From an uncultured Roseicyclus sp. (GTDB taxonomy: Bacteria; Pseudomonadota; Alphaproteobacteria; Rhodobacterales; Rhodobacteraceae): DNA of 64,000 bases. Below, piece by piece: positions 9,264 through 15,198 of this stretch (within the stretch, counting starts at the first letter, position 1; every line of letters begins with the position of its first letter). The notes below the pieces were generated by a model. It searched no databases, was not told the DNA's origin, and saw only the letters and a program-made list of their open reading frames with translations. Made by a program: the position numbers and the translations under genes. The stretch is taken from contig CANLXA010000002.1 in assembly GCA_947494975.1 (NCBI GenBank), positions 682,001 to 746,000 on the forward strand, in the 5' to 3' direction.

Positions 9264-10655
9264 TCAGGCCGCGGTCACCGACACCTGGCTGACGCGGTCG
9301 CGGCCATGGGCCTTGGCGCCGTAAAGCGCGGCGTCGGCTTGCCGGATCAGCATATCGGCCTTGGGCGACGGACCCTGATCGCCGGGAAGCGCGAGGCCGA
9401 CGCTGGCCGTGACCTTCACCGGCAGCGTGTCGCGGGCCAGGTTGAACGTCTTGCCCCCCACCGCATTGCGCAGGCGTTCGGCGCAATCGATGGCACCCGC
9501 ATGGTCCGTATCGGACAGGACCACCAGGAATTCCTCGCCCCCGATGCGCGCCAGCAGGTCATTGGCCCGCAATTGCGCGCGGAGCCGGTGGGCCACCTGT
9601 TGCAGGACCTGATCACCGGCGGCGTGGCCGTATTGGTCATTGATCGTCTTGAAGAAATCAAGATCGATCATCATGACCGCAAGATCGGCGCCGTTGCGTT
9701 CGATCATCTGCTCCATCCGATGGAGCGCGTAGCGGCGATTGTGGAGTCCCGTGAGTGGATCGGTAATCGCAGCTTCAAGTCCGGCGCGCACACCCGCACG
9801 CATCCGGTCGGATTGGCGCTTGCGGTCAAGCTGCACACCAATGCGAATGGCAAGTTCCTTGGCATCGAACGGATCGTGCAGCACATCGCTTGCACCCAGA
9901 TCCAGCGCGATGGCAGCCCGTTCGCTATCGCCTTCGGGCAGGATCATCACCGTGGCCGCATGGCGTGTGCCGGGCCGCGAGCGCAGGTCCGACAGCAGGC
10001 GAAGGCCTTCATTGCGTTGCGCCAGATCCGCGGAGATCACGAAGACATCGGGCGCCTCGGACGCGTCCGACGTGGCTTCGGACAGCGCGGTTTCGCGCGG
10101 GATGATGCGCACCTGGGCGCGCAGCCTGTCATCGATGGCGGATTTCCAAAGCACCGCGCCGCGCGGGCCGGGGGCCACAAGCGCGATCTGGCCCGGGCGA
10201 TCCTTGCCCTCGAAGCCCGAGGCGGCTTCCGCGAAGCCGAAGGCCGACACGGTATCGTCGCGCATCTGCAATTCCCGCACACCGTCCTGCGCCCGCAAAA
10301 GCGACCGGACGCGTGCCAGCAGCGTGACCTCTTCCACCGGCTTGGTCAGGAAGTCGTCGGCCCCCGCCTCCAGCCCCTCCATCTTCGCGTCACGGTCCGA
10401 CAGGGCGGTGATCAGCACGACCGGAATGCTGGCTGTGGCCGGGTCCCGCTTGAGGGCGCGGCAGACGTCCAGCCCGCTCATATCGGGCATCATGACGTCG
10501 AGAAGGATAAGGTCGGGCCGCGTCTCCCGGGCCGCGGCAAGAGCGGACGCCCCATTCTCGGCCTGGTCGACCGTGTAGCACGCGGCTGCGAGCTTCACTT
10601 TCATGACGATGCGGTTTGTCGCTACGTCATCTACGACTAGAATTCGCCCCGCCAT
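9264..10655 (-). CDS. pleD: PleD-like response regulator and diguanylate cyclase
   Basis: 463-residue cytosolic enzyme making cyclic di-GMP. Residues 1-120 are a receiver domain with phosphoacceptor Asp53 (LLDVMMP) and Lys near 103 (LTKP). A second receiver-like domain (about 150-285) lacks a clear phosphoacceptor set, as in Caulobacter PleD. The GGDEF domain (about 300-455) has an intact GGEEF active site at 372-376 and an RxxD inhibitory site (RAND, 363-366), so product feedback is expected. I start at the ATG at 10655 (MAGRILVVDD) because the receiver then begins correctly. Divergent from the DUF3572 gene. Confidence 0.93.
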   Translation of the reverse strand: MAGRILVVDDVATNRIVMKVKLAAACYTVDQAENGASALAAARETRPDLILLDVMMPDMSGLDVCRALKRDPATASIPVVLITALSDRDAKMEGLEAGADDFLTKPVEEVTLLARVRSLLRAQDGVRELQMRDDTVSAFGFAEAASGFEGKDRPGQIALVAPGPRGAVLWKSAIDDRLRAQVRIIPRETALSEATSDASEAPDVFVISADLAQRNEGLRLLSDLRSRPGTRHAATVMILPEGDSERAAIALDLGASDVLHDPFDAKELAIRIGVQLDRKRQSDRMRAGVRAGLEAAITDPLTGLHNRRYALHRMEQMIERNGADLAVMMIDLDFFKTINDQYGHAAGDQVLQQVAHRLRAQLRANDLLARIGGEEFLVVLSDTDHAGAIDCAERLRNAVGGKTFNLARDTLPVKVTASVGLALPGDQGPSPKADMLIRQADAALYGAKAHGRDRVSQVSVTAA

Positions 10656-10688
10656 GGGTACCTCATTTCTACCTGTCACCAGACGCTG

Positions 10689-10717
10689 TATATAAGGAGC
10701 ATCAGTAGCTTGACCCA
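10689..10717 (-). promoter_or_regulatory. Candidate pleD promoter
   Basis: On the minus strand TTGGGT, an 18-base spacer and TATATA (10689-10694) precede the pleD start by about 34 bases. The match to a housekeeping promoter is moderate and is a by-eye call. Confidence 0.3.
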
Positions 10718-10767
10718 AATTTGACGGGCATTAGTTAACAAACCCTTTATGGAGAAAGCGAACTAAA

Positions 10768-11885: not shown

Positions 11886-13493
11886 ATGACAGATTCCGCC
11901 CCCGACACGACCGCCGAGACCGCACCGGAGTCGACCACCCCCGCCGCGTCCCCCCGCAGGCGCCGTGCTGGAGGACGCGCGGCCACCACGGCACGCGCGT
12001 CGGCCCACGCCATCGAGCAAACGCCGTGGCGCCTGCCGGTCAACAATGACCGCCCGACCGAACCGTTGGACGAGGAGGGCGTGCAAGCGCTTCACCGCGG
12101 TGCGATGCGCATTCTGTCGGAGATCGGGATCGAGTTCCTGAATGACGAGGCGATTGGCCACCTGAAAGAGGCGGGCTGCAGGGTGGAGGGACCGAACGTG
12201 TTCTTCGACCCGGCCTTCGTGGAAGAGATGGTCGCGCGCGCGCCTGCGACGTTCACCATCACCCCGCGCAACCCCGACAGACAGCTGATCCTGGGCGAAA
12301 AATACATGCTGTTCGGCAATGTCTCTTCGCCGCCCAACGCGTGGGACCTGGAGCGCGGCAAGCGGCCGGGTGACATGGAAACCTATGTCGAATTCATCAA
12401 GCTGACGCAGTATTTCAACTGCATCCACTTCGCGGGTGGCTACCCGGTGGAGCCGATCGATATTCACCCCTCCATCCGCCATCTCGACTGCCTGTTCGAA
12501 AAACTGACGCTGACCGACAAGGTGGCCCATGCCTATTCGCTCGGGGCCGAGCGGGTGGACGACGTGATGGAGATGGTGCGGATCGCCGGTGGTCTGAGCC
12601 ATGAGGAATTCGAGGCCAGCCCCCGGATGTACACCAACATCAATTCGGTCAGCCCGCTGAAGCACGATTTCCCGATGCTGGACGGAGCGATGCGTCTGGC
12701 GCGGCGGGGGCAGCCTGTCGTGGTGACGCCGTTCACACTCGCGGGCGCAATGGCGCCGGTGACGCTGTCGGGCGCCGTGGCGCTGTCGATTGCGGAGGGG
12801 TTGGCCGCGATCGCGCTTTTGCAATGGATCGCCCCGGGCTGCCCGGTGGCGATCGGCACGTTCACCTCCAACGTGGACATGAAATCCGGCGCGCCCGCCT
12901 TCGGTACACCGGAATACATGCGCGCCACCCAGATGACAGGCCAGATGGCACGGCTTTATGGCCTACCGATGCGCGCCTCGGGCGTATGTGCCGCCAATGT
13001 GCCCGATGGTCAGGCGATGTGGGAGACCTCCAATTCGCTCTGGTCCGGCGTGCAGGCGGGGGCCAACATGATCTACCACGCCGCCGGTTGGCTGGAGGGG
13101 GGGCTTATCGCAAGCCCCGAGAAATTCGTCATGGATTGCGAGGTGCTCCAGCAGATCCAGCGGTATTTCGAGCCGCAGATTCTGGGTGTGTCAGACGACG
13201 ATCTGGCCATCGATGCGATCAGGGAGGTCGGCCCAGGCGGACATTTCTTTGGCTGCCAGCACACCCAGGACCGCTACCAGGACGCGTTCTATGGCCCGTT
13301 TCTGTCGGATTGGCGGAACTTTGAATCGTGGCGTCTGGATGGTGCGGTGTGGACCGCGGAGCGTGCCCACAAGACCTATAAGTCGATCCTGGCGGAGTTC
13401 GAAGCGCCACCCATGGATGCGGCCATTCGTGACGAGTTGGCCGACTTCGTGGCGCGCCGAAAGGCCGAAGGCGGCGCACCTACGGATTTCTGA
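11886..13493 (+). CDS. MttB/MtgB-family methyltransferase homologue
   Basis: 535-residue member of the trimethylamine methyltransferase family (COG5598). The N-terminal 45 residues are low-complexity and charged. The remainder has the family's barrel pattern, with ALHRGAMRILSEIGIEF near 60 and a C-terminal HFFGCQHTQDRY near 455. It is read through without an in-frame amber codon, so it belongs to the non-pyrrolysine group, whose characterised members demethylate glycine betaine and related quaternary amines using a corrinoid partner protein. No corrinoid protein, MtgA-type enzyme or reactivase lies in the window. Substrate is therefore inference. It stands alone between a hairpin and the H-NOX-like gene. 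Confidence 0.85.
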   Translation: MTDSAPDTTAETAPESTTPAASPRRRRAGGRAATTARASAHAIEQTPWRLPVNNDRPTEPLDEEGVQALHRGAMRILSEIGIEFLNDEAIGHLKEAGCRVEGPNVFFDPAFVEEMVARAPATFTITPRNPDRQLILGEKYMLFGNVSSPPNAWDLERGKRPGDMETYVEFIKLTQYFNCIHFAGGYPVEPIDIHPSIRHLDCLFEKLTLTDKVAHAYSLGAERVDDVMEMVRIAGGLSHEEFEASPRMYTNINSVSPLKHDFPMLDGAMRLARRGQPVVVTPFTLAGAMAPVTLSGAVALSIAEGLAAIALLQWIAPGCPVAIGTFTSNVDMKSGAPAFGTPEYMRATQMTGQMARLYGLPMRASGVCAANVPDGQAMWETSNSLWSGVQAGANMIYHAAGWLEGGLIASPEKFVMDCEVLQQIQRYFEPQILGVSDDDLAIDAIREVGPGGHFFGCQHTQDRYQDAFYGPFLSDWRNFESWRLDGAVWTAERAHKTYKSILAEFEAPPMDAAIRDELADFVARRKAEGGAPTDF

Positions 13494-13594: not shown

Positions 13595-14182
13595 ATGCAC
13601 GGTATGATCAATCGCGCGCTGCAGAGTTTTCTGGTGGCGACCTATGGCAATGATGTCTGGGTCGAGGTCCGCAACCTGGCCAAATTGCCGTTCGACGATT
13701 TCGAATCGATGCTGACCTACGATGATGCGCACACGATGGATTGCTTCACGGCGGCGTGTCAGACGATGCACCAATCACCCATCGCGCTTTTGGAGGATCT
13801 GGGCACGTTCCTGATTACCCATCCGCCGCTGGATCCGCTGCGGCGGTTGTTGCGGTTCGGCGGCGCCAGTTTTCAGGATTTCATCCTGTCCCTGGATGAA
13901 TTGGCCGATCGGGGGCGGATGGCCATGCCCGCCATCGAAATGCCCGAGATCGAAGTTACCGAACTGGGTGCCAATACCTATCGGCTCGGTGCGCATTGGA
14001 AACTGCCGGGCATTGGCCCGATTCTGTTCGGCGCGCTCAGGGCGATGGCAGACGATTACGGAAGCCTCGCCACGCTCAAACTGGCCGGCGTGCGCGACGG
14101 CGCGGAATGCGTCGAGATCGAGGTTCACGATACCCGCCACGCCGAAGGGCGCAGCTTTCAGCTCGCGGAAATGACATCATGA
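13595..14182 (+). CDS. H-NOX-like protein lacking haem-ligand residues
   Basis: 195-residue protein with the H-NOX (haem NO-binding) fold signature: MHGMINRALQSFL at the N terminus, YGNDVW at 17-22, and the LLRFGGASFQDFILSLDEL helix leading to MPEIEV. In canonical H-NOX proteins the proximal histidine follows that helix (D-x-x-H); here the aligned residue is Ala104 (codon GCC at 13904-13906). The YxSxR haem-propionate motif is also missing; the aligned stretch around 129-134 is YRLGAH. I therefore doubt that it binds haem. Its stop overlaps the start of the GGDEF gene (ATGA), so the two proteins are made together. Start ATG 13595 matches the family N terminus. Confidence 0.82.
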   Translation: MHGMINRALQSFLVATYGNDVWVEVRNLAKLPFDDFESMLTYDDAHTMDCFTAACQTMHQSPIALLEDLGTFLITHPPLDPLRRLLRFGGASFQDFILSLDELADRGRMAMPAIEMPEIEVTELGANTYRLGAHWKLPGIGPILFGALRAMADDYGSLATLKLAGVRDGAECVEIEVHDTRHAEGRSFQLAEMTS

Positions 14183-15198
14183 CGATCCATTCGCCGCCGC
14201 CGACGCGGCCCGAGCTTCGGTTGCCGATCGCCGTTCTCGATCGGCTTATGCCCATGCATCTGTCGATCGATCCGCGGGGGCAGATCCGCCATGCCGGGCC
14301 GACGATCCGTAAGATGCTCGGTTGGGACGGATCGGGGCCCCCCTCGATCTTCGAGCATGTGGAGATCCGTCGCCCCCAGGGTGTCGATGATGTAAAGGCC
14401 TTGATGCAACAGGCGGGATCCCGTCTGTCGCTGGCTTTGAAAACGGCGCCGGATCTGCAGTTGCGCGGGGTCCTCCTTCCGGTCGAAGATGGGGGCGGCG
14501 CGATCATTGATATCTCGCTTGGCCTTTACTTCGCGCGGGCCGTCGCCGAATTCTCGTTGACGCTGCACGATTTTTCGCCGTGTGATCAAACGGTTGAACT
14601 CCTTTATCTGCACGAGGCCAATACCTCCACGACCCGGCTTTCGACGCGTCTGTCCGAGCGGTTGCAATCGGCCCACGCAGCGGCGCAATACCAGGCACGC
14701 ACCGATGTCTTGACCGGGCTGTCGAACCGGCGGGCCATGGACGATGAACTGGAACGGCTCCTGTCCGACAAGAACCAGGATTTCACGCTGCTTCACCTTG
14801 ATCTCGATCTCTTCAAGGAGGTCAACGACACCCATGGCCATGCGGCGGGCGACGCGGTGTTGATGAATGTCGGTGCCATCTTGTCGCGCGAATTGCGCCG
14901 AAACGATTTTCCAGCCCGGATTGGGGGGGACGAATTCCTTGTCCTGTTGCGACCGACGGTTGGGGAGGAGGTGGCCGGTCGCATCGCGCAGCGCCTCATT
15001 CAACGGATCGAGGCGCCCCTTGCCTTCGAAGGAATTGAATGCGCGGTGTCGGCCAGCATCGGCATCGTGATGACCACACGATATTCGCAACGTCCGACGA
15101 TGAATGAGCTGATGGCCGATGCGGATGCCGCGCTCTATCGGGCCAAGCATGCGGGCCGGGGGCGATACGTGGTTCACAGCCAGGCGGGCCTTCACTAG
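14179..15198 (+). CDS. Diguanylate cyclase with H-NOX-associated domain
   Basis: 339-residue cytosolic protein. Residues about 15-130 resemble the H-NOX-associated PAS-like (HNOBA) domain, with VLDRLMPMHLSID and the RGQIRHAGPTI stretch. A coiled-coil-like helix at about 150-175 leads to a GGDEF domain with intact active site GGDEF (249-253) and an RxxD inhibitory site (RRND, 240-243). It should synthesise cyclic di-GMP and be regulated by the H-NOX-like protein encoded immediately upstream with a 4-base overlap. NO-responsive H-NOX/diguanylate cyclase pairs are known, to my recollection including Dinoroseobacter shibae. Confidence 0.9.
   Translation: MTIHSPPPTRPELRLPIAVLDRLMPMHLSIDPRGQIRHAGPTIRKMLGWDGSGPPSIFEHVEIRRPQGVDDVKALMQQAGSRLSLALKTAPDLQLRGVLLPVEDGGGAIIDISLGLYFARAVAEFSLTLHDFSPCDQTVELLYLHEANTSTTRLSTRLSERLQSAHAAAQYQARTDVLTGLSNRRAMDDELERLLSDKNQDFTLLHLDLDLFKEVNDTHGHAAGDAVLMNVGAILSRELRRNDFPARIGGDEFLVLLRPTVGEEVAGRIAQRLIQRIEAPLAFEGIECAVSASIGIVMTTRYSQRPTMNELMADADAALYRAKHAGRGRYVVHSQAGLH

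Follow-up and report, generated by a model that had tools for sequence, protein, structure and literature searches.

An H-NOX-like protein without the proximal histidine, coupled to a diguanylate cyclase in Roseicyclus, a member of an already described kind of Rhodobacteraceae operon

In the window, by which is meant the whole 64,000-nucleotide stretch of DNA from an uncultured Roseicyclus sp. that was analysed, an H-NOX-like gene and a diguanylate cyclase gene form a genuine pair, and the proximal histidine that ligates haem in canonical H-NOX proteins is absent. By the traits that have been described for Group 5 H-NOX proteins, the two genes make up another Rhodobacteraceae operon of that H-NOX/HNOBA-GGDEF kind. 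The earlier note on this DNA had suggested a haem-independent H-NOX cyclic-di-GMP switch; that suggestion agrees with the sequence evidence, but such a switch is not a new type, since the Group 5 description already in print covers proteins of this sort, and the window alone therefore adds no new type of system to a kind that is known and unsolved. What appears to be novel here is a tree that sets the window's His-less clade beside the His-bearing protein presumed to be that of Dinoroseobacter shibae. The pair has the following features.

13595-14182, + strand: H-NOX-like protein of 195 amino acids, with Ala at the position of the proximal His (open reading frame, Pfam HNOB, Nostoc alignment)
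13904-13906, + strand: codon 104 (GCC, Ala), which in canonical H-NOX encodes the haem-ligating His (HMMER alignment, codon read)
13991-14005, + strand: residues 133-137 (AHWKL), aligned with the YxSxR of canonical H-NOX (alignment)
14179-14182, + strand: ATGA overlap between the stop of the H-NOX-like gene and the start of the cyclase gene (ends of the open reading frames)
14179-15198, + strand: diguanylate cyclase of 339 amino acids (Pfam GGDEF, HNOBA-like N terminus, model)
14923-14937, + strand: GGDEF active-site motif, cyclase residues 249-253, with the RxxD I-site just before it (translation)

The earlier note had described a protein that keeps the H-NOX fold and carries Ala104 in place of the proximal haem His, and both statements stand. 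The protein scores 71.1 bits against Pfam HNOB (cut-off 25.5), and a phmmer search against solved structures returned Nostoc H-NOX (E 2.4e-12) as well as sGC beta1; among NCBIfam profiles, no model matched it at E <= 0.001. In the HMMER alignment, the proximal His of Nostoc H-NOX (4iae; the H of NLDNLHARV) falls opposite Ala104 (LDELADRG), and with Leu103 and Asp105 flanking that residue no other His fills the proximal position. The same Ala occurs in a 99 % identical protein (L003/L171) and in all 13 genomes counted as the window's genus, which speaks against a sequencing error at this codon. The YxSxR motif, whose role is at the haem propionates, is gone as well, as had been claimed; the stretch first given as its replacement, YRLGAH (129-134), begins four residues too early, and the true counterpart, with which the Nostoc YQSTR aligns gap-free, is AHWKL (133-137).

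On the side of the cyclase, the proposed ATGA coupling and the intact GGDEF and RxxD motifs were borne out, in that bases 14179-14182 are common to both genes, the Pfam GGDEF match reaches 143.3 bits, the GGDEF motif occupies residues 249-253, and the I-site reads RRND at residues 240-243. Across 55 aligned partner cyclases, G249, G250, D251, E252, F253 and D243 are invariant and R240 is nearly so. The N terminus had been called an HNOBA domain, and here a weaker wording is needed, as the match to Pfam HNOBA, at 22.9 bits, lies just below the cut-off of 23.4 and covers 60 of the 216 positions (residues 14-73); matches of this kind at E <= 0.01 were found in 48 of the 55 aligned cyclases, the window's own included. 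The protein is laid out as an HNOBA-like domain at about residues 14-135, as delimited in the model, a long helix (137-175) and a GGDEF domain (174-328). The genome from which the window comes encodes one HNOB protein, seven GGDEF domains and six EAL domains.

The AlphaFold2 model of the H-NOX-like protein, built with 60 aligned sequences, has a mean pLDDT of 89.3 and a pTM of 0.84, and places residue 104 within a helix spanning residues 93-110. Its top Foldseek matches are Nostoc H-NOX structures (E 1.5e-13), and VIA-align superposes it on Nostoc H-NOX 2o09 with a Z of 21.6 over 178 residues (rmsd 2.3), the best 13 rows all being to Nostoc H-NOX and human sGC beta1 (Z 20.5-22.5; 177-185 residues; 2.0-2.7 A). 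Beyond the H-NOX family, the best VIA-align matches are to TRAPP Bet3-type and BcsD-type proteins, with Z 8.4-8.8. The model of the partner cyclase (pLDDT 90.3, pTM 0.53) consists of a PAS-like N-terminal part, the helix 137-175 and the GGDEF domain; Foldseek puts PAS-GGDEF-EAL proteins and sGC beta1 near the top, and the VIA-align matches are GGDEF domains (Z about 22), sGC being absent from the 50 rows listed. The likeness to sGC beta1 lies in the fold of the H-NOX domain and in the alignability of the cyclase protein (6jt2_B, 353 columns, E 2.4e-14 in Foldseek), but H-NOX is on a separate protein here, the partner carries GGDEF and not the sGC cyclase, and the TM-score of that alignment is only 0.36. 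In sGC, the H-NOX domain of the alpha subunit is not known to carry haem.

Matches to the H-NOX-like protein were found in 47 of 101 genomes (the window's own and 100 relatives), including all 13 of its genus, and at least one HNOB protein is encoded in 296 of 394 genomes of the family. In a class-wide sample, seven of 289 genomes match the clade profile; four of these belong to the same family, among them the source of a His-bearing protein (L032, from G346), and the other three matches score better with a profile of His-bearing proteins and all carry His. L032 has both the His and YYSER, and its gene overlaps by four bases one for a cyclase like those of the clade (296 bits); this is apparently a canonical version of the operon within the family. 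The 249 matching loci reduce to 232 non-identical proteins, of which profile scores assign 198 to the window's clade and leave 34 outside. Among the 198, position 104 is Pro in 116, His in 19, Ala in 18, Ser in 12, Gly in 6, Glu in 6, Gln in 5, Arg in 5, Asn in 3, Asp, Thr and Lys in 2 each, and Tyr and Val in 1 each. The proximal His is absent from 179 of the 198 clade proteins and present in all 34 sampled H-NOX proteins from outside the clade, a comparison in which sampling is uneven, since the matches listed for the family are biased towards high-scoring, His-bearing proteins and supplied most of the 34, and since the scan keeping the best 80 of 577 relatives is biased towards the window's close kin. 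In the relatives sample, 2 of 45 clade proteins have His; a canonical protein (G016) and a protein cut short (G042) were left out, and the copy in G048 is broken. Five further loci with records titled Roseicyclus (L174, L175, L180, L181 and L184) have Gly or Asp at this position, and none has His, and the nearest titled relative, among the best 80 of 577 confirmed relatives, is the uncultured Roseicyclus locus L171, at 99 % identity.

The string Y-x-S-x-R occurs in 32 of the 34 proteins outside the clade and in 3 of the 198 inside, and the aligned Tyr is present in 34/34 and 2/198, respectively; the motif is therefore gone from nearly all clade members, the His-bearing ones included. Separately, an in-frame TAA interrupts the H-NOX-like genes of L076 (G048) and L091 (G323), each in a single genome, so that the sensor-like gene is sometimes disrupted.

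An HNOBA-GGDEF-type gene lies directly downstream in 197 of the 198 clade members, the sole miss (L095) being a stretch that reaches only to the start of its contig. The 4-base overlap recurs in 114 of 204 pairs (197 from the clade and 7 from outside, with starts set by rule), the GGDEF motif is present in 196 of the 197 downstream cyclases, and RxxD precedes it in 193 of those 196.

Just upstream, at 11886-13493 on the + strand, lies a homologue of MttB-type methyltransferases; it scores 258.8 bits against TIGR02369, below the equivalog cut-off of 525, a score that does not mark it as a trimethylamine enzyme. Of 65 full titled loci, 48 have a relative of this gene upstream of the pair and in the same orientation. 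Approximately 3 kb away, at 9264-10718 on the - strand, is a gene for a PleD-like response regulator with two receiver-like stretches (recognized by eye) followed by GGEEF. Among the GGDEF proteins of this genome, its product and the H-NOX partner alone lack an adjacent EAL domain, and in 9 of the 65 full titled loci a PleD-like gene stands upstream in the opposite orientation. As regards regulation, the H-NOX gene of D. shibae is described as being under CtrA control (PMC7232146). Within the 300 bases upstream of the clade's genes (196 regions, 2 more being too short), a CtrA-like pattern (TTAA-N7-TTAA) occurred in 1 region vs 6 of 3,920 shuffled ones (about 0.3 expected), and an Fnr-like pattern in 3 vs 21 of 3,920 letter-shuffled ones (about 1 expected), numbers too few for a claim in either case.

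For the placement of the window's protein among its relatives, we take genome G047 to be D. shibae DFL12 and genome G103 to be R. sphaeroides. The presumed D. shibae genome has one HNOB gene (G047/L062), which belongs to the window's clade and keeps the His (LDDLHDRARL). Dinoroseobacter had been named in the earlier note as a canonical comparison; the single H-NOX of the presumed D. shibae genome lies in the window's own clade. The presumed R. sphaeroides protein (G103, L083) has Pro at the proximal position, which fits the statement in print that R. sphaeroides lacks the His (PMC5588039). On a 47-row tree computed with the trait columns removed, the His-less clade that holds the window's protein comprises 30 rows (100/100) with Ala, Gly, Ser, Pro or Asp, and is sister to the presumed D. 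shibae protein together with L205, which has Lys (98/95); both are nested in a 39-row clade (100/99), and His is present in six of the seven remaining rows. On a 72-row tree, where the window sits on a long branch with its near relatives left out, it groups with the His-bearing L244 (89/17, a weak node) and next with D. shibae (86/80), within an 8-row group (82/93) whose other seven rows all have His, and is not the direct sister of D. shibae. The simplest reading of either tree is that the ancestor of the window's line would have been His-bearing.

The His has changed state repeatedly, losses and regains being indistinguishable. Eight changes are counted on the best 72-row tree, at least five of them forced by well-supported branches (with the bootstrap not settled), and the 196-row FastTree tree has 12, a number that rises to 26 when regain of His is disallowed. 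A single origin of the His state was rejected, none of 200 bootstrap trees having one change. In 10 within-genus pairs, dN/dS of the H-NOX-like gene (Nei-Gojobori) is 0.03-0.17 and lies below that of the cyclase gene in 9; the values are rough, as dS exceeds 1 in 8 of the 10, and for the two pairs without saturation they are 0.05 and 0.03. Such ratios indicate that the gene is under purifying selection and is being kept, not decaying.

The pair resembles several systems already in the literature. A 2022 review (PMC8738867) describes Group 5 as a very large H-NOX cluster with the proximal His in <10 % of members, mostly Pro in its place and no conserved Cys, gives GGDEF and MTTB among the neighbour families in a figure legend, and poses the question of how these proteins sense anything. 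The window's clade is similar in its proportions of His (19/198) and Pro (116/198), in having no conserved Cys, and in the GGDEF gene directly downstream and the MttB-type gene nearby; it differs in that the window's genus has Ala, not Pro. The Group 5 section of that review gives no tree of losses, and a literature search that covered few subscription papers found no paper mapping His losses on a tree or pairing D. shibae with a His-less clade.

A second comparison is with HnoX/DgcA of P. denitrificans (Pden_3719/3720). According to one report (PMC5588039), the H-NOX proteins of R. sphaeroides and P. denitrificans lack the proximal His, and the dgcA gene overlaps hnoX; an hnoX mutant of P. 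denitrificans forms less biofilm and a double cyclase mutant more, which led the authors to suggest inhibition of DgcA by H-NOX, with NO drawn as the input to H-NOX; NO also acts there without H-NOX. In a 2025 study, c-di-GMP was undetectable in P. denitrificans (PMC12582929), which leaves inhibition by a His-less H-NOX a proposal in biochemical terms. Compared by description, this pair shares with that of the window the His-less H-NOX and the overlap with a GGDEF gene, and the other GGDEF protein of P. denitrificans has a receiver domain, like the window's 9264-10718 neighbour; mutant phenotypes are reported for the P. denitrificans pair, whereas the window's pair is known from sequence alone. 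The third comparison is with H-NOX/Dgc1 of D. shibae (Dshi_2815 and its neighbour), where NO-bound H-NOX is reported to inhibit Dgc1 (PMC7232146, PMC8846402). This operon is the same, with a 4-base overlap (presumed G047/L062), and represents the sister lineage on the 47-row tree, but its protein keeps the proximal His and has reported NO sensing through haem, whereas the window's protein has Ala104.

There is, in our judgement, about an even chance that the pair works by haem-independent docking of the H-NOX-like protein on the cyclase's HNOBA-like domain, most likely as a constitutive brake on c-di-GMP synthesis. The docked partner would set cyclase activity without a His-ligated haem. A His-less form would resemble a protein with a permanently severed Fe-His bond, and could be regarded as permanently NO-bound-like because the NO-bound D. 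shibae orthologue is reported to inhibit its cyclase; the direction of the brake is thus inferred, being borrowed from relatives. The brake might be set by the protein's own level or by a ligand in the vacated pocket. An H103G variant of the S. oneidensis protein (2kil), with its ligand severed, reportedly mimics the NO state; a literature search for 'H103G' together with H-NOX found no paper. The computed basis for the docked brake consists of the predicted H-NOX fold, the missing His and YxSxR, the intact cyclase motifs, the purifying selection, the cyclase linkage and the His-bearing sister lineage.

The loss of haem on which this docked brake depends is itself suggested by the absence of both the His and the YxSxR motif and by a pocket that seems relaxed. 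Positions 104, 112 and 133-137 vary freely between lineages. Pro at 112 is present in 34/34 proteins outside the clade, in 16/19 His-bearing clade members and in 108/179 His-less ones; Ser8 is found in 17/19 His-bearing vs 45/179 His-less members; and residue 137 is Leu, Met, Ile or Val in 119/179 His-less members and not so in 17/19 His-bearing ones. These raw differences match what might be expected of a pocket released from haem; counted on independent pairs, the association between pocket residues and His is not significant (5 supported pairs, a number with which significance is out of reach).

It is unlikely, although not negligibly so, that some other small molecule occupies the vacated pocket and that the pair senses a signal other than NO. 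Many clade-specific residues, namely E67, D68, G70, R84, R87, F88, G90, P117, G146, D153 and G156, are invariant in the 60 aligned members, as a new ligand might demand, but the free variation at 104, 112 and 133-137 points to a relaxed pocket more readily than to a single new and specific ligand. The Bet3-type TRAPP proteins are the best non-H-NOX structural matches (2j3w, Z 8.8; 6aq3, Z 8.7), and one of them holds a bound palmitate, a likeness which suggests that an H-NOX-type fold is able to hold other hydrophobic ligands; SCOP places H-NOX together with Bet3. However, Z values of 8-9 lie close to what VIA-align rates as common, and BcsD-type proteins do equally well (8.4-8.6). The question of what such proteins sense is also raised in the Group 5 review (PMC8738867).

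Rather more doubtful is the reading in which the protein keeps its haem, held by a different residue or simply by the porphyrin pocket, and goes on sensing NO. The genetics of P. denitrificans tie hnoX to NO consumption and biofilm (PMC5588039), and His2 is kept in 171/179 His-less members. However, it is just as common in the His-bearing ones (17/19), and it is hence not a replacement ligand. Further candidates that are close to fixed (M39, M151, Y17, Y42 and Y155) are likewise common in His-bearing members, and H76, H98, H163, C133 and Y72 each occur in at most 75 % of His-less members; the Tyr of YxSxR is also wanting in all but 2 of the 198. A substitute haem ligand was accordingly rejected, as no His, Cys, Met or Tyr column common among His-less members looks like a replacement.

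A cysteine/zinc redox sensor is very improbable: a haem-independent mode of this type is described for the haem-free H-NOX of V. cholerae (PMC7108781, PMC8738867), but the conserved 3-Cys zinc site of the V. cholerae type is absent among the 179 His-less members, and the only column with Cys in >40 % of them is 133 (100/179), which is Ala in the window. That the protein is merely a decaying or mis-sequenced H-NOX is barely conceivable: occasional broken copies do exist, in G048 and G323, but Ala is uniform in the 13 genus genomes and dN/dS is low, below that of the partner in 9 of the 10 pairs.

Setting the docked brake in its family context, it is possible, and we say so tentatively, that several independent conversions in one family have turned an NO sensor into a haem-free cyclase regulator by the loss of a single His, the product being either an NO-bound-like brake or a sensor of a new ligand, perhaps a hydrophobic one. 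Most members of the H-NOX clade sampled in this family are His-less (179/198). Because the tree sets a His-less clade next to proteins that share its type of cyclase partner and have the His, one of these proteins being reported to be NO-responsive, the question of what the His-less form responds to can be tested by the swap of one residue or of one protein. If the proposal is true, sister pairs, the D. shibae-like with the His and the Roseicyclus-like without it, would constitute a natural experiment on the role of haem in H-NOX signalling.
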